Assembly: GCA_018817005.1 (NCBI GenBank) | Contig: JAHIUF010000015.1 | Location: forward strand, 1-63,312 | Direction of reading: 5' to 3' | DNA from: Nanobdellota archaeon | GTDB lineage: Archaea; Nanobdellota; Nanobdellia; Woesearchaeales; GCA-2686295 | Length of the DNA stretch: 63,312 nucleotides | Part shown: piece after piece, positions 5,804-48,279 of the stretch | Layout of the letters: every line of letters begins with the position of its first letter | How positions within the stretch are numbered: the first letter of the stretch is position 1 | The notes under the pieces: generated by a model | Databases searched by the model: none | What the model was told of the DNA's origin: nothing | What the model saw: the letters and a program-made list of their open reading frames with translations, nothing else | Made by a program: the position numbers and the translations under genes

Positions 5804-6601
5804 TCAAGACCTAAATCGCCCCTCATATTTTTTCTTTCGCTTCTCATCCTTCTTATCACGAGAAAAAACCAAATAATAATCTCTACGGCTCTCAAAATAA
5901 TATGAAAAGTTAAAAAAAACATCAAAAGAAGAAAACATGCAATTATAAAAATAAGGATCAAAAAGAAAGAAAGAGGACTCTTGAAACTTATCAGAAACGC
6001 CTTTGAAAAGGCCTCCAACAGAATCCAAGAACAATCGCGTATCAGACTTGTCCGCAAAAGAGTCATAAACAAGTCTCTGAGGCTTATTAATTTGAAAGTA
6101 TGTTTTCTTCAAATCACAGTTATTAAACCTGTAAACAAGACTAGAAATAGCCTGAGGAGATGCATTAATAGAGTAATCCTTCTTTCTTGTCAAATAAAAC
6201 GATTTAAAAGTGTGAGACAACAATTTTTTCTTATTCAAAAGCTCCAAACTATTAGAATAAGCAGATGCAATTTTCATAGTCTTTAAAAGAGCATAAGAAG
6301 TTTCTTTAGCCTGCTTCAGATTAACCGAAACAATGTGTTTATTCTTATCAAAAGCCACTTGCTCCAACATAGAATCATAATTAGATAAATTATCTTTAAA
6401 AATAAAAGAAAACTGTTTCTCATCAAATTTTACATAAGGCTTTTCCATAACATAAAGCAATCTTGCAAGCCTCTGACCTGAAAGATTCAAAACACTCTGA
6501 TCTTTAGACAAAGTATGGAATAAAGCAGTCAAACCCCTTTCTATGCCAAAAACCAAATCATCCAAAGATTGTTGTTCTACCTTTCTAAAAATAAATATCA
6601 C
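5804..6601 (-). CDS. Hypothetical protein with C-terminal FFLFDxxFY motif
   Basis: C-terminus SFFLFDPYFYNCMFSSFDVFFNFSYYFESRRDYYLVF matches the neighbouring protein. Confidence 0.7.
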   Translation of the reverse strand: MIFIFRKVEQQSLDDLVFGIERGLTALFHTLSKDQSVLNLSGQRLARLLYVMEKPYVKFDEKQFSFIFKDNLSNYDSMLEQVAFDKNKHIVSVNLKQAKETSYALLKTMKIASAYSNSLELLNKKKLLSHTFKSFYLTRKKDYSINASPQAISSLVYRFNNCDLKKTYFQINKPQRLVYDSFADKSDTRLFLDSVGGLFKGVSDKFQESSFFLFDPYFYNCMFSSFDVFFNFSYYFESRRDYYLVFSRDKKDEKRKKKYEGRFRS

Positions 6602-6661
6602 CCATTAAAACAACGGAAATAGAAAAGTATTTATAAATATTAATCTAAATGATAAAAGTAA

Positions 6662-8098
6662 ATGATTAATCCCAACATAAGAAACAAAATAGTACATATT
6701 CTTGAACCAGAGTTTAACAAACAAACACAAAGAGGATTAAATAAATTTGCAGATGAGACAAATCAAAAATTTGAAAGAATAAAAAATCATTGGAGAAGAC
6801 CAATAACAAAAGCCTTATTATTCGCATTTGCTTTCAGTATCGGCAGTTCATCAGTATATGGAATGTCAAAAGAAACCAGAAACAATTGCAACGAACTGGT
6901 TAACGTCGCACACAAAATACAAAACGAATCAAATGTTTTTTTTGATTTACAAAGAAATTTACAAACAAATCCAACAACACAAAACAGCTTAAAACTTCAA
7001 GAATGCAAAAATAGATTAGCTGAATATTTAAAAGAGGCAAATCAACTAAAAAATGATATTTTTGATTCAATAAGAGCTGATGCTGTAGAACACATATTAA
7101 CAAACAATTTCTCACAAATAAAAGAAGATGCTGCACTTGTTAACTTGTATGCAAAACAAGATGGAGATGAAAAAATAATTGAAGAAGCAAGAAAATTAGA
7201 AACAGAACTGAAAGAATCAATAGAACAAGGAATCATCGTCAATAAAATTATAGAAGAAGCTAAACAACATGCTAAATTTGGTCGCGCCAAAGAAGCAAGG
7301 ATTGAAATGCAAAAAGCATTTAATATTCTTAAAAAACACGAATTTTTATTTAAAAAAGTTATCCATGGGTATTCAGAGGTATATTATATTCTTCTTGAAG
7401 ACGTTGATACCGCAGCAAGATTCGGTCGTTATGATGAAGCAAAAGCTGACGCAGAAGAATACTTAAAAGCCATAAAATCAATGGGTGTTCCAAAGGAAGC
7501 GAAAGAAGAACTTGAACAAATTTTAAAACAAGGACTTTCAATTATCGTCCAACACATACTTAATGATGCAGAGAGTAATGCAATCACACACAATAAGTTT
7601 GATGAAGCATATGTCTTGATTCTCAAAGCAAAAAGAGATTTCGAAGATATAAAGGCTGATTCCATAATTAGTATAACTGAAAAAAAAGTAGCCGAAAGCA
7701 TGTGTAAAGAAGCCATGAATAAGAGTAAGATTCATAAAAAATTTGAGGAGGGACTAAAACTTATTCAAACCGCAAAGGAAAGATATCCTGATCAAAAAGA
7801 AGTTATTCAGCATTACAGTTATAAATTTGGAATAGTTATTCTTTCAGAAGTAAAGGACCTTACAATAAAAAAGCATTTTAATCAAGCATTAGATATGCTT
7901 GAATATTATGAGAAACATCATTTCAAAGGTCCTATGAAAAGCATGAGAAAAACCATGGCCAATTACATTATGGAACTTGCTAAGATGTCTAGTAGTCCAA
8001 GGGAAGCTCAAAATCTTATTAAAATTGCCAAGGACATCGAGGAGGGACGATCTTTAGGTAATAATCTGTGGAACTGGTTAAAAGTTAATTTCTCATAA
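6662..8098 (+). CDS. Membrane-anchored helical-repeat (TPR-like) protein
   Basis: N-terminal TM (ALLFAFAFSIGSSSVYG) followed by repeated helical pairs with alanine/glycine spacing. Confidence 0.65.
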   Translation: MINPNIRNKIVHILEPEFNKQTQRGLNKFADETNQKFERIKNHWRRPITKALLFAFAFSIGSSSVYGMSKETRNNCNELVNVAHKIQNESNVFFDLQRNLQTNPTTQNSLKLQECKNRLAEYLKEANQLKNDIFDSIRADAVEHILTNNFSQIKEDAALVNLYAKQDGDEKIIEEARKLETELKESIEQGIIVNKIIEEAKQHAKFGRAKEARIEMQKAFNILKKHEFLFKKVIHGYSEVYYILLEDVDTAARFGRYDEAKADAEEYLKAIKSMGVPKEAKEELEQILKQGLSIIVQHILNDAESNAITHNKFDEAYVLILKAKRDFEDIKADSIISITEKKVAESMCKEAMNKSKIHKKFEEGLKLIQTAKERYPDQKEVIQHYSYKFGIVILSEVKDLTIKKHFNQALDMLEYYEKHHFKGPMKSMRKTMANYIMELAKMSSSPREAQNLIKIAKDIEEGRSLGNNLWNWLKVNFS

Positions 8099-40982: not shown

Positions 40983-41066
40983 GCCTCTGTGGCTTAGTGG
41001 TATAGCGCGTGCTTGGTAAACATTCCAGACAGCACGAGGTCGCGAGTTCAATTCTCGCCAGAGGCT
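40983..41066 (+). tRNA. tRNA-Thr(GGT) with 12-nt intron (about 41119-41130 is not used; intron lies at 41019-41030)
   Basis: GCCTCTG...CAGAGGC, CGTGC-TTGGTA|AACATTCCAGAC|A-GCACG, GCGAG-TTCAATT-CTCGC, U73; upstream TATA tttaaata. Confidence 0.93.
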
Positions 41067-41164
41067 TATATGTTTTGGTAGATGTTTGTTCTTATTTAGA
41101 GGTTTAAAAGTGAGTCTAAGAACGTATGTTAAAGGCTTACCTTTATATTTCCCCTAAAAAGTGA

Positions 41165-41350
41165 TTAGTTTTTTGTCGTTGGGTGGTCTCCTATTTTTCT
41201 GTTGTGCTTATATGCTTTTAGTACTCCTATAAATCCTAATTCTTTAAATTTGTCGTTTATTCCTGCAGATAATTCGTCCCATTCGATTGTGTTGGGTTTA
41301 TAGCTTGTTTGTTTGTCTTTTTTAAGTTTTTCTATATTTATTATATTCAT
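41165..41350 (-). CDS. Hypothetical element protein
   Basis: MNIINIEKLKKDKQ...; preceded by hairpin-SD leader. Confidence 0.55.
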   Translation of the reverse strand: MNIINIEKLKKDKQTSYKPNTIEWDELSAGINDKFKELGFIGVLKAYKHNRKIGDHPTTKN

Positions 41351-41366
41351 TTTATTTTTCTCCTTT

Positions 41367-41384
41367 GTTAAATCTTTGTTTAAC
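41367..41384 (-). promoter_or_regulatory. Leader hairpin copy A
   Basis: GTTAAA-caaaga-TTTAAC followed by aaaggag. Confidence 0.65.
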
Positions 41385-41428
41385 ATCTTTTTTTTATTCT
41401 AATTTTTTTAACTTTATTTTTCTCCTTT

Positions 41429-41451
41429 GTTAAAATCTTTGTTGTTTTAAC
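41429..41451 (-). promoter_or_regulatory. Leader hairpin copy B
   Basis: GTTAAAA-caacaaaga-TTTTAAC followed by aaaggag. Confidence 0.65.
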
Positions 41452-41719
41452 AAATTTTTATTTGTTTTTCTTCTTCTTGTTTTTCTTCTTCTTGTATTTC
41501 TTCTGGTTTCGTTACTTGTCTTGCAATAAATTCTAGTGTTGTTTTCATTTCATAAAATTCGGCTTTTATTTTACTTAGTTCAATTATTGAGTCTCTGTAA
41601 ACTTCAACAAGTCGGTTTAATTCTGTTCCTGCTTTTATGAGTTTATTTATTGTTTTTACAAATTGTTTAAAGGCTGTTTTATCTTCTACTTCTTGGTAGT
41701 CGTTAATTTTTGTTATCAT
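41447..41719 (-). CDS. Hypothetical coiled-coil element protein
   Basis: Start overlaps end of 41716-41907. Confidence 0.6.
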   Translation of the reverse strand: MITKINDYQEVEDKTAFKQFVKTINKLIKAGTELNRLVEVYRDSIIELSKIKAEFYEMKTTLEFIARQVTKPEEIQEEEKQEEEKQIKIC

Positions 41720-41907
41720 TTGCTTTTATGGATTATTTTTCTTAAGTATTCAAAATCTTCTTCTGCTTCTGTGATGAATCTGCATAGTAAAATAATTAAT
41801 TTTTTATCTTCGCTAATTTTTTTGTAAAGGTTTTTTGTTTCTTGTATGTGTTTTTCTGTGTTTGTTAGTGCTTTTAGTTGTTGTTGTTTATTTTTGTTAT
41901 TTTTCAT
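41716..41907 (-). CDS. Hypothetical element protein
   Basis: MKNNKNKQQQLKALTNTEKHIQETKNLYKKI; preceded by hairpin-SD leader. Confidence 0.6.
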   Translation of the reverse strand: MKNNKNKQQQLKALTNTEKHIQETKNLYKKISEDKKLIILLCRFITEAEEDFEYLRKIIHKSK

Positions 41908-41923
41908 TTTGTTTTTCTCCTTT

Positions 41924-41941
41924 GTTAAATCTTTGTTTAAC
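41924..41941 (-). promoter_or_regulatory. Leader hairpin copy C
   Basis: Identical to copy A. Confidence 0.65.
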
Positions 41942-42008
41942 ATCTTTTTTTTATTTCAAATTTTAATATTATTTTTTTTTATCACCTTTTTTCTTTGTAT
42001 CTTTTCTG

Positions 42009-42057
42009 AAGTTCCTGACTTGGTTAGCTCATTTTTTGGCTAACCAATCATGAACTT
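42009..42057. repeat. Nested inverted repeat
   Basis: AAGTTC...GAACTT enclosing GGTTAGC...GCTAACC. Confidence 0.7.
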
Positions 42058-42534
42058 TTTAAAAATCCTTTTTTTCGGCAGTTGCAAACTGCTTTACTAT
42101 CTTTTTCAAAGAAATGACTGGTTTTGCTCTTTCAAATTGTTTTTTATCAATCGGTATTTTTGAATAAGAAGCAAGGCTTCATCATCTCAAAAATAAAAAG
42201 CTTTATCTTGTCGGAATCAGCTTGTCTGGTTCTGAAAGAATAAAACTTTTAGATACACTTTAGAAAAAACAATCTTTTCAAGAATTATCCATTTTCATGT
42301 TATTTTTTTTCCCTTTAAAATTTGAAATTAATTTTTTTGTTTTTTGCTGTTTTTCTTTATTTTTTTGGTTCTTTGCTGTTTTTTGTTTTTTGCTGTTTTT
42401 CCTTATTTTTTTGTTTTTTTTCTTTTTTTTGTCGTCTTTATTTTATGATTTATTAGTTTTTTATTATATATGTTGTGTTACCATAATCTTTATATACTTT
42501 GAAAGTTATACTTTTATTTAAGTTAGAATTTTCT

Positions 42535-42557
42535 TTAAAAAACGAAAGATTTATATA
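42535..42557 (+). promoter_or_regulatory. BRE/TATA promoter for the plus-strand element operon
   Basis: TTAAAAAACGAAAGATTTATATA. Confidence 0.7.
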
Positions 42558-42676
42558 GTCCTTTCCATATTAGAATGTGTAGATAATCGTTTATCGTGGA
42601 TGGTTTTTGTAGTTTTTACATATGATTAACGATTTGAGGTATAAGAAAATGTTGTTTTGTGTTTTGGGTGTTGCAA

Positions 42677-42841
42677 GTGAGTGATTGGATTACTATAACT
42701 TTTCCTAATTATTTTAGGGCTTTGTTTGATGATATTAAAGCTGAGAGAAAGGATTTAGTTTCTGAAAGGTTAATAACTCAAGAAGCTGTTAGGTTTTTTT
42801 GGCGTGTTAATTGTGAATCTAAGAAGTCTAAAAGAAGATGA
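42677..42841 (+). CDS. Small hypothetical element protein
   Basis: (V/M)SDWITITFPNYFRALFDDIKAERKDLVSERLITQEAVRFFWRVN; GTG start possible. Confidence 0.5.
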   Translation: MSDWITITFPNYFRALFDDIKAERKDLVSERLITQEAVRFFWRVNCESKKSKRR

Positions 42842-42945
42842 GTTTTTTTGTTTTTTTTAAATCTTTTTTTTCTAATTCTATTTTTAAATCTAATTTTTTT
42901 AAATCTTTTTTTTCTTTTTTAGTTTTTTTGTCCTCGTTGGTGTTT

Positions 42946-43038
42946 GTGCATTGTTTAAAATTTAAGCCACTCGATAGTGGCTTACTATTAAACAAGAGTC
43001 ACCGGTGTTCGAATCGCGAAGCGATTGACTTAATGCAC
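42946..43038. other. Multi-hairpin structured region, candidate double-strand origin
   Basis: GTGCATT/AATGCAC outer pair; AAGCCACT-CGAT-AGTGGCTT; AATCGC-gaa-GCGATT; loop region reads CTCGATA. Confidence 0.6.
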
Positions 43039-43063
43039 CATGAAATTAGAGGGGGTGTTTTAA

Positions 43064-43279
43064 ATGGCTGTTAAGAGAAAGATTGGTAATGTTTTTATTA
43101 TCGCTTATGATTTGTTTGGTAAAAAGGTTTTTTCTTCAAAAATAACTTCTTTTAATTTTAATTGCTTGAGGTATCTAGCAATTCGTGATAAAATATCTAT
43201 TGATAAAGTTTTATCTCGTCTTATTTTATTTAATAAGAAGTTTGAAACTAAATCTAAAGTTTCTGAGGTTTCTAAATGA
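43064..43279 (+). CDS. Small hypothetical element protein
   Basis: SD gaggggg; overlaps Rep start. Confidence 0.6.
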   Translation: MAVKRKIGNVFIIAYDLFGKKVFSSKITSFNFNCLRYLAIRDKISIDKVLSRLILFNKKFETKSKVSEVSK

Positions 43280-44577
43280 CTTTTCAAAAATCTGTTTATA
43301 AGCATTTCTTAGAAAATATTAGTTTGGTAAGTTTTGGTTTTGAAGTTTCAAATTATAATTATGTTTACAAAACTCCTTTTACTGAATCTCCTTATAGTAA
43401 TACTTTAAATGGTAATATTAATAATATTAATAATAATATTAGTGAAACTCCTTTACTTGTTCAAATAGGAATAACTCTTCCAGAGGTTAATCATTTAAAT
43501 TTTTTGTCTGCTTTAAGGAGTTTTGGTTATTTTAAAACTGATTATACTTTTAATAAATCCGTTGGTTGTTTTAAAGGTGAGTTGGGTGCTTCTGGCTTGG
43601 TTGTAGATTATGGTTGTCACGCTGTCGATTTGCCTGATAGGTGTGGGCAGTTGTTTTGTCCTAAGTGTTCTAAGTTGTATCGTTATAAGACTAAAAAGAG
43701 GGTTGTTGAAAAGGTTTTGTCTATGAGAAATCCTCGTTTTCTTACTTTTAGTGGTTCTAATGTTTCTGAGTTATCTAAAGAGTATTTTCAGAATAATTCT
43801 AAGATTTGGAATCGTTTTAAAACTGATGTAAATAAAGATTTCGGGTGTGTTTTTCAAGATTATGTGAATGTTATTGAAGTAAAGTTTCATGCTAAGGGTT
43901 CTAATAAGTATGATAAAAATGGTTCTGTGATTGGTGTTTATGATTCTAATAGTTGGAATATTCATAACCATATAATTTATGATGGTAAATACTTAGATTT
44001 CCATACTGCAAGAAACTACTTGTTAAAGGCTTCTAAAGGTCGTTATAAAGCTATTTGGTTTGAAAAGGCTAATAATGTTCAAGATAAGGTTAAGAGTGCT
44101 GGTTACATTTCTAAGTATCTTTTAAAGGCTTCTGGTTTTGGTGGTGATGTTCAGGCTATGGCTCAGTTTTATTTTCATACTAAAAATATGAGAATGGTCA
44201 CTTTTGGTCGTTCTAAAGATGTTTATGTTCCGTCTTTAGAAGAAGCTTTGCAGTTTCCTCAGACTCGTTCTTTATTCACTTGTCCATTATGTAATAAAAA
44301 AGTTAGTTCTGTAACTTTAAGTTTTGTTCGTGTTAAGGATAGAGATAATAATTATAAGGATTATGATTCACCAATATACATTGGTGTTATTGAAGATTCT
44401 TCTCAGCGTTTATTGAATGGTTCTGATGAAGTTTTACGTTTTATTGAATCTCAAAAGGGTGTTATGAATAATGCTTTAGAGATAGAAAAATTGTTTGGTG
44501 TAGATGTTATTAACGATTTAAAATCTAAAGGGTTTATTTATGAGTCTAAGATTAATTATTTAGAGGTTTTAAAGTGA
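43276..44577 (+). CDS. HUH-type rolling-circle replication initiator (Rep_1-like)
   Basis: Motif 1 RFLTFSG, HUH-like WNIHNHIIYDGK, tyrosine motif AGYISKYLLKA, Zn pairs FCPKC and FTCPLCNKK. Confidence 0.82.
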   Translation: MTFQKSVYKHFLENISLVSFGFEVSNYNYVYKTPFTESPYSNTLNGNINNINNNISETPLLVQIGITLPEVNHLNFLSALRSFGYFKTDYTFNKSVGCFKGELGASGLVVDYGCHAVDLPDRCGQLFCPKCSKLYRYKTKKRVVEKVLSMRNPRFLTFSGSNVSELSKEYFQNNSKIWNRFKTDVNKDFGCVFQDYVNVIEVKFHAKGSNKYDKNGSVIGVYDSNSWNIHNHIIYDGKYLDFHTARNYLLKASKGRYKAIWFEKANNVQDKVKSAGYISKYLLKASGFGGDVQAMAQFYFHTKNMRMVTFGRSKDVYVPSLEEALQFPQTRSLFTCPLCNKKVSSVTLSFVRVKDRDNNYKDYDSPIYIGVIEDSSQRLLNGSDEVLRFIESQKGVMNNALEIEKLFGVDVINDLKSKGFIYESKINYLEVLK

Positions 44578-44867
44578 AATCTATTTCTAAACAATTTCAA
44601 AAGAATGGTTTAAATCTTAAATTACTTGAAAGAGTTGGTAGTGTTGTGTTATTTAAGCTTTTTAATGATGAGGGGTGCGTATATGGTTATGAAGTTCATA
44701 AACTACGCTTAAAATCATATCCCTATGGTAAATTTAACGAATCTGGGGTTATGATTAGAGTAACTAAACTTTGTTTAGCAAGTAATGAAGAATTTGGTCG
44801 TTTTGCTTGGTCTTATGATAATTTTATTTCTGCAAGTAGTAAATTTAATGAATTATTAGAGGTTTAA
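44574..44867 (+). CDS. Hypothetical element protein
   Basis: GTG start overlapping Rep stop. Confidence 0.6.
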   Translation: MKSISKQFQKNGLNLKLLERVGSVVLFKLFNDEGCVYGYEVHKLRLKSYPYGKFNESGVMIRVTKLCLASNEEFGRFAWSYDNFISASSKFNELLEV

Positions 44868-44869
44868 AG

Positions 44870-45067
44870 TTGGTTCTTAATTACTATGTCGCTTTTAAAG
44901 TTTCGTTATTAGATAGAGAGTTAATAAATGAGTTTGTTGGTGATAAACCTATATCTGAAGTTATTAGAAATATTGTTATGCAAAGAGTAAAACAAGGTTC
45001 TCATATTCAGGATTATTTAGAAAGTATTAATAAACAATTATTTGAAATTAAAGCTAAATTGGTTTAA
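44870..45067 (+). CDS. Small hypothetical protein, possible ribbon-helix-helix
   Basis: YYVAFKVSLLDRELINEFVGDKPISEVIRNIVMQRVKQ. Confidence 0.5.
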   Translation: MVLNYYVAFKVSLLDRELINEFVGDKPISEVIRNIVMQRVKQGSHIQDYLESINKQLFEIKAKLV

Positions 45068-45112
45068 CATTGTTTTACTTTATTTATAAAGGGTGGTTAC
45101 CTATTTTACTGT

Positions 45113-45211
45113 ATGAATTTAGATTTTAATACTATGTTGTTGTTAGCTATACTCTTTATTCTACTCTTTTTTGGTAGTCAATTCTTAAATTTTCTGAGGC
45201 GTTTCATATGA
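45113..45211 (+). CDS. 32-aa single-TM protein
   Basis: MNLDFNTMLLLAILFILLFFGSQFLNFLRRFI; stop overlaps next ATG (ATGA); missed by ORF cutoff. Confidence 0.6.
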   Translation: MNLDFNTMLLLAILFILLFFGSQFLNFLRRFI

Positions 45212-46044
45212 ATAAAAATTATTTAATTATTTTAGGTGTTATCGCTTTAATATTTTTGGGTTTATCAAATGGTTTTTTAAGTAATTCTTTAACTTTTTTA
45301 AAAGAATTTTCTGATAGAGATTCAGCTAATCAATATTTAGATAGTATTAAATCTCAAGGTTATATTAATACGGCTGTTCGTTGTAGTTATGGTTCTGATA
45401 ACAAGGTGAGTAGTTGCAAAGTTTATGGTGAAATATCCTCTGATTCTAATGAAATTTCTAAATCTAATGTTTTAACTGCTTTTGTTGTTTCTAATAGTGT
45501 TTGTGTTGAGAAAAAGTATAGTAGTTCAGAGTGGCGTTTAGATATTATTGAGAAGTCTTTAAATACCAATGTTGATGGTTGTTTTAAGGGTATTAATGTT
45601 GATGGCTGGATTTGGAAATCTAAGAGTTCTTGTGTTGAATGTTTAGTTCGTGTAAATAATAATTTGAATCCTTATACTCGTTATGTTGTAGATTATTCTT
45701 CTGTTGAGCCTGTTTGTGTTGCTGATAGTAATGGTTATTATACTCTTAAAGATTGTTTGGATATTGTTAAACCTGATTTAAAGGTTTGTGGTGGCGTTGA
45801 GAGTGAATGTGTTTATCCTAATGGTGTTAGTAATGCTTTTAGGGTTTGTGAAGATGGTGGTTTAAAAGAGGGTTATTGTGCTGATGGACAATATTGTTAT
45901 GAATCTTCTGATGTCGTTGCTTCTTGCAAGGGTGAGGGTGGTTCTGATGAAGTTCCTGATAGTGTTAAATTTGCAGTTTCTGGTTTTTTAATAGCTGGGA
46001 TTCTTTTAGTTGTTTGGTATCTTTTTAAGAGGGGTAAATTATAA
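45208..46044 (+). CDS. Cys-rich ectodomain protein with N- and C-terminal TM segments
   Basis: N-terminal YLIILGVIALIFLGL, many Cys, C-terminal FAVSGFLIAGILLVVWYLFKRGKL. Confidence 0.75.
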   Translation: MNKNYLIILGVIALIFLGLSNGFLSNSLTFLKEFSDRDSANQYLDSIKSQGYINTAVRCSYGSDNKVSSCKVYGEISSDSNEISKSNVLTAFVVSNSVCVEKKYSSSEWRLDIIEKSLNTNVDGCFKGINVDGWIWKSKSSCVECLVRVNNNLNPYTRYVVDYSSVEPVCVADSNGYYTLKDCLDIVKPDLKVCGGVESECVYPNGVSNAFRVCEDGGLKEGYCADGQYCYESSDVVASCKGEGGSDEVPDSVKFAVSGFLIAGILLVVWYLFKRGKL

Positions 46045-46045
46045 A

Positions 46046-46375
46046 ATGTATTTTGTTCAGATTATGAAAAAGTTTTTACCTTATATTGTTTTATTGTTTT
46101 TGGTGTTGTTGTTGTTTAATTATGTTGCTAACAATTTTTTTCAAAGTTATGATGAAAAAGTTGAGGATAAGGCTTATTTTAAATTATTTGGTATGCGTGT
46201 TTTTCCTAAATTTTTTGTTGAGTATGGTGATGTTAAATCTTATCGTGGTGATTATGAGGATTTATGTAAATGGTATATGCTTAAATGTAGTTGGAATTAT
46301 GAGAATAAGCCTTTAGATAATTGGGCTTTAAATAAAGATGGTTGTCGTCAAGAGGGTGACTGGATTGTTTGTTAA
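46046..46375 (+). CDS. Single-TM protein with small ectodomain
   Basis: LPYIVLLFLVLLLFNYVANNF then soluble Cys-containing tail. Confidence 0.65.
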   Translation: MYFVQIMKKFLPYIVLLFLVLLLFNYVANNFFQSYDEKVEDKAYFKLFGMRVFPKFFVEYGDVKSYRGDYEDLCKWYMLKCSWNYENKPLDNWALNKDGCRQEGDWIVC

Positions 46376-46406
46376 TGTTCATACTTTTTTCATGCGAAGA
46401 AAGGCT

Positions 46407-46465
46407 GGTTTTTACAGGATTTTGAAAAACTTTTACCCCCTTTCGTTTTTTCACCTGTAAAAACC
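46407..46465. repeat. Long two-tier hairpin in the element
   Basis: GGTTTTTACAGG...CCTGTAAAAACC enclosing TGAAAAAC...GTTTTTTCA. Confidence 0.85.
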
Positions 46466-46484
46466 TTATTTAATTTTTGTTAAA

Positions 46485-46733
46485 ATGGTTATTAAGATTT
46501 GTAAGAGTAAGAATAATAAGAATTATTTTTTATATCAGAATAAGCCTTTTTTTATTAATGAATCACCTCGTAATTTAACTCATAATCCTAAGGGTTATGA
46601 TTATTTTATAAGTAATTGTTCTTCTTATGGTGTTTGGTTTAAAAGTGGTTATATTGATGGTTTTGAGGTTTATTTATTTGGTGAATTATTTGGTGTAATT
46701 AATTCTGATGGTGATATTGAAGTTTCTGAATAA
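46485..46733 (+). CDS. Hypothetical element protein
   Basis: Intact ORF MVIKICKSKNNKNYFLYQNK. Confidence 0.55.
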   Translation: MVIKICKSKNNKNYFLYQNKPFFINESPRNLTHNPKGYDYFISNCSSYGVWFKSGYIDGFEVYLFGELFGVINSDGDIEVSE

Positions 46734-46782
46734 TTTTTTTAGTAGAAATTTGGTTTAATTAATTTTTTTTATTAATTAGATT

Positions 46783-48039
46783 TTAATTTCTTTTCAATTT
46801 TTGAAATTGTTTTAATTTGTTTTTTTTTAAAATTGTTTTTTCTTCGTCTGTAAGATTTATTTTTCTTAATTTCATTATTGTTTCTAATTTTTGTTTAATA
46901 TTTAAGAAATCTATGTGGGTAGTTTGTTGTCTTCTGAATAGGTTGTTAAATATTTCGTTTTTTATTTTTTGTTGTTTAATTTCTTCTTTTAAGAGATTGC
47001 TTTCTTTAATTAATTGGTTTATTTGTTCTTGTTGTTTTTCTGCTTGAAAAGTGATTATTTTTTGTTTTGGTTTGTGTCTGTCGATTGCTAAAAAGTTAAT
47101 ATACTTGTCTATTTCTTTACTGCTTGGTTTATGTCCTAATCGGCTGTTGATTTCATCTCTGCTCCATCCTTTGTTTAGTAAATCACAAGCCATTGATGAA
47201 CGTAAATCTTTCCATGTTAATACTTGTCCGTTTGGTCTGCATTTCGTTTGTGTAATTTTTATTGTTCTTTTAAGTATTTTAAAGGCGTTTCGATAATCAA
47301 ATTTGAAGATTTGTTCTTCTTCATCATCTATTTTATTTAGAATAGCGTTTAATAGTTTTGCTGTTTCTGAGTAGTTTGTGATTTCACTTCTGGCTGTTCG
47401 GCTTCTTTTGAGTGTTTCTCGTCTTAGGTTTATTCTGTATTCATAATCATTATTTGTTTTATTTGTTTCTTTATTGCAATCTTTTTTTTTGAGTTGCAGT
47501 ATAGCTGTAATATTTTCTCCAATATCGAAGGCTAACCATATTAAGAGTTTATGTTCTGGTTTTGTGGTGGTTTCGATTATATTTCTGACTTCTTCTTCAG
47601 TGATATATCTTACTTCTTCTGTGTTTTTGTGGTGTCCATATTGCATTACTTCTTTGACTATTTTTTGTTTGCCTAACATTTCGAAAGGTTTGCTTTTAAA
47701 GATTTTATTGTAGAAACTATTTTTATCTTTATATGGTGTTCCTTTTTCGGTTTTTATCGTTCCATCTTCTAATCCGTTATAGACTTTTTCAAAGTCTTTT
47801 TTTGTAATGTTTTTTAATGGTTTATTTTGAAACCATTTATTTACTGTGTTTAGTAGTGTTATGTAAGTATAGAGTGTTTTGTAACAGCCTTTATCTAATT
47901 CGTTTAGATCATTATTTCTTTTTAATTTATATTCTTCATATTCAAAGAATTTTTTAAAGAATTCTCTGTTTTCGTTGCAAATATTTTTGTTTTGTAGAAA
48001 ATTTTTGATTCTTTTTTCATAGCTTATTTTTTCTTTCAT
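46783..48039 (-). CDS. Tyrosine integrase
   Basis: C-terminal LTWKDLRSSMACDLLNKGWSRDEINSRLGHKPSSKEIDKYINF; adjacent to the att repeat. Confidence 0.82.
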   Translation of the reverse strand: MKEKISYEKRIKNFLQNKNICNENREFFKKFFEYEEYKLKRNNDLNELDKGCYKTLYTYITLLNTVNKWFQNKPLKNITKKDFEKVYNGLEDGTIKTEKGTPYKDKNSFYNKIFKSKPFEMLGKQKIVKEVMQYGHHKNTEEVRYITEEEVRNIIETTTKPEHKLLIWLAFDIGENITAILQLKKKDCNKETNKTNNDYEYRINLRRETLKRSRTARSEITNYSETAKLLNAILNKIDDEEEQIFKFDYRNAFKILKRTIKITQTKCRPNGQVLTWKDLRSSMACDLLNKGWSRDEINSRLGHKPSSKEIDKYINFLAIDRHKPKQKIITFQAEKQQEQINQLIKESNLLKEEIKQQKIKNEIFNNLFRRQQTTHIDFLNIKQKLETIMKLRKINLTDEEKTILKKNKLKQFQKLKRN

Positions 48040-48097
48040 ATAAGCTTGATAAATTCTGATTTATTTAAATGTTTTGGTAACATCTACTATATTGAGT

Positions 48098-48114
48098 ATT
48101 CTCGCCAGAGGCTT
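48098..48114. repeat. attR: copy of the tRNA-Thr 3' end
   Basis: attctcgccagaggctt identical to 41051-41067. Confidence 0.88.
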
Positions 48115-48164
48115 GCAAAGCAAGACGAGAAGGCGAGGCCCAAAAACAAAAAAGTTTTTGACTG

Positions 48165-48179
48165 TCTCGCCAGAAGCTT
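48165..48179. repeat. Second partial tRNA-Thr 3'-end copy
   Basis: tctcgccagaagctt (one mismatch). Confidence 0.65.
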
Positions 48180-48279
48180 ACCGCTCTTTTGGTTGGTTTT
48201 TAAAGATATATTTAGAAATCATCGAATCAGACTCAGAAATTCTTATTACCGGTTGGATATTTTTAAGTTAATAATATAT

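Follow-up and report, generated by a model that had tools for sequence, protein, structure and literature searches.

Initiators and origins of described rolling-circle replicons

In rolling-circle replicons, placement of the dso upstream of rep is a common layout (PMC5703833). It is found in the pC194/pUB110 type, whose initiators belong to Rep_1 (PF01446) and nick TTATCTTG^ATA outside a hairpin loop. Work on related plasmids states that hairpins can be missing from pC194-family dsos (PMC5037232). The nucleophile of pC194 Rep is Tyr214, and Glu210 serves as the terminating base (PMC5703833). The phiX174 gpA protein employs two active-site tyrosines in a YxxKY site (YVAKYVNK), and the phage (+) origin, CAACTTG^ATA, is unstructured. 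In f1/M13, the intergenic region upstream of rep contains several hairpins that form in ssDNA. A different geometry is found in pT181 and pMV158, which present the scissile bond in a hairpin loop (PMC5703833, PMC5714925) and encode Reps of the Rep_trans and Rep_2 families.

Archaeal dsos vary: according to the summary in PMC9569500, pGT5 has GGGTTTATCTTG/ATA and haloarchaea have TCTCGGC. SNJ2, an archaeal virus and integrative betapleolipovirus, has been shown experimentally to need a hairpin adjoining rep for its replication (PMC13107129). The literature searched contained no rolling-circle origin described for a member of the Woesearchaeales (DPANN).

The integrated element and its Rep protein

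The window, a contig of 63,312 nucleotides, belongs to an archaeal genome of 1.66 Mb. It contains an element of 7,047 bp, bounded by attL and attR at a tRNA-Thr(GGT) gene (40983-41066), that carries a tyrosine integrase, an HUH Rep and several small ORFs (Table 1). Chromosomal DNA homologous to that of a congener, G007, restarts at about 48135 and includes an ATPase gene at 48277. In G007 the ATPase neighbour lies 1.4 kb from tRNA-Thr(GGT) and the element is absent. The att repeats, the integrase and the element-free congener make the element look like an excisable replicon, and a strand bias in base composition points to a possible ssDNA intermediate. A degenerate third copy of the tRNA-Thr 3' end is found at 48163-48179, 65 bp past attR, and was perhaps left behind by a previous insertion, or is what remains of a tRNA that has decayed.

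Table 1. Features of the integrated element, in window coordinates.
Feature	Position	Strand	Basis or remark
attL core, 3' end of tRNA-Thr(GGT)	41051..41067	+	17-nt exact direct repeat
Second strongly structured non-coding region, candidate sso	42000..42095	+	long hairpin 42009-42058; DNA -20.4, z -6.61
60-aa ORF	42659..42841	+	ORF call; no family
Three-way-junction structure	42946..43038	+	DNA z -5.96, RNA z -5.05; 0/56 shuffled elements
P2' hairpin TAAGCCACT-CGAT-AGTGGCTTA	42963..42984	+	9-bp stem (42963-42971 with 42976-42984), 4-nt loop CGAT
CTCGATA, candidate nick site CTCG^ATA	42970..42976	+	one mismatch to CTTGATA; G/A bond 42973/42974 mid-loop
P4 hairpin AATCGC-GAA-GCGATT	43012..43026	+	contains GCGAAGC mini-hairpin motif; from sequence
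71-aa ORF (ORF71)	43064..43279	+	SD-like GGGGGTG; overlaps rep start (ATGA); no family
HUH Rep, 433 aa	43276..44577	+	Rep_1 E 0.008; motif alignment; MCM-like C-terminus
278-aa protein	45208..46044	+	hydrophobic N- and C-terminal segments; no confident family
Third intergenic hairpin GGTTTTTACAGG/CCTGTAAAAACC	46385..46475	+	12-bp stem; DNA z -3.79
Tyrosine integrase, 418 aa	46783..48039	-	PF00589 E 1e-6; XerA-like E 8e-10, below cut-off
attR core	48098..48114	+	exact copy of tRNA-Thr 3' end

The + strand of the element (41067-48098) is T-rich and C-poor regardless of gene direction (T 47%, A 26%, G 17%, C 10%). Third codon positions are 63% T and 4% C in rep, and 58% A and 3% G in the minus-strand integrase when its coding strand is read. 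In three host genes examined for comparison, C is not depleted on the + strand to a similar degree. This bias suggests long single-stranded exposure of the + strand, as in a ssDNA life stage, and if that strand is often single-stranded, a leading-strand nick would be expected on it. The layout of hairpins near rep is similar to that of f1/M13, but neither a Zot-like ATPase nor coat genes were recognised in the element, and the 278-aa protein has no relatives among viral contigs.

By its sequence motifs, Rep is a Rep_1-like protein with two putative active-site tyrosines, Y277 and Y281, as in phiX174 gpA. It scores 16 bits against Rep_1, under the Pfam gathering threshold of 33.2, and so falls outside formal membership of the family. 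In common with pC194/pUB110 proteins it has a Zn motif (CGQLFCPKC), an FLT motif (FLTFSGS), a metal-binding Glu (E201, opposite pC194 Glu142), an HUH motif (H230-N-H232, in WN-H-N-H) and a (K)Y motif (Y277/Y281, in GYISKYLLK). These motifs align with pC194, pGTD7 and phiX174, and in this alignment the gene has the HUH motif and catalytic tyrosine of a rolling-circle initiator. Where pC194 has Glu210 and Tyr214, the window Rep has Tyr277 and Tyr281, so that the site reads YxxKY (YISKYLLK) like that of gpA.

The C-terminus of Rep (residues about 400-433) matches the C-terminal winged helices of archaeal MCM proteins. The score against Pfam MCM_WH_arc is E 0.1, the likeness to archaeal RPA32 is weak, and of two low-confidence AlphaFold models (pLDDT 32 and 37) one draws the final 50 residues as helices followed by a beta hairpin. 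The tail may serve for docking to the replisome of the host, and would suggest a way in which so small an element could enlist host replication proteins. The Rep of SNJ2 also ends in a winged helix, though a MarR-like one, and it is a Rep-Arvir protein, Rep_trans-like and not HUH (PMC13107129).

The search for relatives of Rep covered phages, plasmids, contigs from viruses and from GTDB, and several hundred genomes belonging to the same phylum, class and order. One true homologue was found (L027/L046), at 6346-7080 (-) of a 7138-bp contig from a Candidatus Woesearchaeota MAG (DAHXMN010000034.1). It has YVLKY, like the two-tyrosine site of the window Rep, and an MCM-like winged-helix end as well. 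The contig ends inside the gene, before the HUH motif is reached, leaving the upstream DNA absent; none of the searches produced a homologous element with DNA upstream of rep, and hence no covariation. This second element is GC-rich and virus- or plasmid-like, with a P-loop protein (GQRMGKD), membrane proteins and nearly all genes on one strand, and it has no relatives among viral contigs. Three other candidates were rejected: L036 is an operon of a ribosomal protein and RNA polymerase, and L002 and L026 are spurious or weak.

The branched structure upstream of the ORF71-rep operon

The computed ensemble of the 93-nt segment at 42946-43038 is a three-way junction. Stem P1 pairs GTGCATT (42946-42952) with AATGCAC (43032-43038). 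Stem P2 (42952-42958 with 42988-42994) is continued by the hairpin P2', which has pair probabilities of 0.86-1.0 and is the element's longest perfect stem among loops of 3-8 nt. Stem P3 (42997-43001 with 43026-43030) is capped by P4, which competes with other pairings and has a pair probability of about 0.6. The complementarities listed in the earlier note were thus all recovered, including a first hairpin with CTCGATA around its loop. The same note had put the region some 240 bp before the rep start, in agreement with the 238 bp that separate the end of the structure from the ATG at 43276; CTCGATA itself lies 306 bp from this ATG, with ORF71 intervening.

The structure is real and highly non-random. 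As DNA, the segment folds with -21.1 kcal/mol and as RNA with -30.5, and in neither case is any of 200 shuffles (local ones for DNA) equally stable. The best 100-nt window of the element has -21.8 kcal/mol, a value that none of the dinucleotide-shuffled elements reaches (n = 56; mean minimum -11.7, lowest -14.9). All 34 listed stem pairs are Watson-Crick (13 G-C and 21 A-T, with zero G-T), bases 42952 and 43026 each being counted in two alternative pairs of this list. The calculated ensemble adds a single peripheral G-T pair, 42996/43031, with a probability of 0.46.

This pairing bears on whether the structure acts as DNA or as RNA. It lies 26 nt upstream of the start of ORF71, which has a strong SD, and BRE/TATA-like sequences noted by eye at ~42489 and ~42547 would place it within the transcript. 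Together with its folding as RNA (z -5.05), these features are what would be expected of an RNA leader that controls how the ORF71-rep operon is translated or transcribed. An RNA helix would tolerate G-T, however, so stems that have stayed Watson-Crick throughout despite C-to-T pressure are more readily explained by selection on the DNA. The main stems have no G-U, Rfam gives no match to a family over 42946-43038 up to E 5, and T-tracts at 42843-42930 may end transcripts before the structure is reached. We regard an RNA leader as quite unlikely. No intrinsic terminator is called.

A tRNA-like reading of the segment (7-bp acceptor, GTTCGAATC) was also rejected: by hand, the bases 5' of AATGCAC form no T-arm, and neither ARAGORN nor Rfam reports a tRNA at 42946-43038. 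The pattern GCCACTCGATAGTGGC has 10 matches in viral contigs, all in unrelated, GC-richer sequence and attributable to chance. GGTGTT occurs in iteron-like fashion at 42939, 43004 and 43054, too weakly for use.

The inverted repeats might instead be operators for autoregulation by ORF71 or Rep, in which case folding of a single strand would be unneeded. A 22-bp near-palindrome does lie directly upstream of the operon, and in pUB110 the dso and the rep promoter next to it are both coated by RepU (PMC5703833). Operators would nevertheless leave the nested outer stems that close the junction (7 bp and 7-8 bp) unexplained, and ORF71 belongs to no recognised DNA-binding family. We regard this explanation as very unlikely.

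An origin acting as DNA is favoured by several features. The structured block immediately precedes the ORF71-rep operon, and the element around it has an integrase and att repeats; none of its 13 G-C pairs has drifted to G-T despite C-to-T pressure; and it contains the GCGAAGC mini-hairpin. This mini-hairpin is very stable in single-stranded DNA. Stable hairpins of 7-10 nt constitute a general class in single-stranded DNA (PMC10527192). With roughly even confidence, 42946-43038 may be assigned as a replication-control region of the 7.05-kb integrative element, which would replicate by rolling circle, and most likely as its leading-strand origin. SNJ2, also an archaeal integrative element with a hairpin origin by rep, is a precedent and not a homologue: its Rep is of a different family and its hairpin lies downstream of rep (PMC13107129).

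What the sequence shows is the structure, the element, the motifs of Rep and the strand bias; we infer that the structure is an origin, that Rep binds there and where the nick falls. In such a scheme, the integrase would cut the element out at its att sites in tRNA-Thr sequence, and Rep would act on the + strand, which would become single-stranded and fold at 42946-43038. The 9-bp hairpin would extrude, and Rep would bind the branched region and nick CTCG^ATA in the loop through Y281 (or Y277). The two tyrosines could then alternate for re-initiation, as in phiX174 gpA.

The candidate nick site and the other structured regions

The element has a single CTCGATA on its + strand. The match to CTTGATA is imperfect and was picked after the fact. 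In its favour, a one-mismatch CTTGATA with its G-A bond in the loop arises in only about 1.4% of hairpin tips in shuffled elements. An exact CTTGATA at 48045 is a weak candidate for an alternative nick site, given that 0.85 occurrences are expected by chance. Since archaeal dso sequences vary, CTCGATA is compatible with a nick site.

The geometry differs from that of the pC194/phiX174 type, to whose nick sites the earlier note had likened CTCGATA. In control folds, the nick sites of pC194, pGT5 and phiX174 are unpaired or outside a hairpin, as is the CTTGATA motif of pGTD7, whereas CTCGATA, which stands in place of CTTGATA, sits across a loop closed by a 9-bp stem. The nick site of a further control, the haloarchaeal plasmid pZMX101, could not be located. 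The element lacks TCTTGATA, and with it the TCTTG^ATA nick sequence of the pC194 type, as well as CAACTTGATA of the phiX174 origin. The loop presentation of the candidate nick fits pT181 and pMV158 origins better than those of pC194 and phiX174, although their Rep families differ from the window Rep and no bind-repeat array was found here. The earlier nick-site reading is accordingly kept in part. It is supported by a downstream HUH Rep with complete pC194/phiX174-type motifs, an excisable-looking replicon and the + strand bias, while the analogy to the pC194/phiX174 dso is not supported, given the mismatch and control nick sites that are not loop-presented.

Nicking by Rep in the P2' loop is plausible but not established, and somewhat doubtful. 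That all parts hold together is unlikely, namely a DPANN element whose two-tyrosine, phiX174-like HUH Rep has a host-like MCM/RPA32-type winged helix as a tail for docking to the replisome and nicks CTCG^ATA where a branched hairpin presents it in its loop. Were Rep to nick in this loop, the pC194/phiX174 catalytic type would be joined to hairpin-presented origins, and the short oligo would be open to direct testing.

The element has other such structures, and 42000-42095 is at least as structured. For this reason 42946-43038 could be an sso or something else. It might, for instance, be an sso or packaging-type signal on the displaced + strand, with Rep nicking elsewhere. The structural peaks of pC194, pGT5, phiX174 and pGTD7 lie away from the nick site or motif. 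Those of pC194, pGT5 and pGTD7, which may be ssos, speak for such a signal. The GCGAAGC mini-hairpin, unusually stable in single-stranded DNA (PMC10527192, on 7-10-nt hairpins), and a strand bias that indicates a long-lived single-stranded + strand point the same way. Against it, 42000-42095 is an equally good candidate for that role, and the P2' loop has a nick-like motif. An sso or packaging signal at 42946-43038 is a doubtful alternative to the leading-strand origin.

A third hairpin, intergenic like the others, follows at 46385-46475 (z -3.79). Elsewhere in the element, a 117-nt repeat (41305-41421 and 41862-41978, 74% identical) surrounds the starts of small minus-strand genes, which have a common N-terminus, MLNKDLTKEKNKM.
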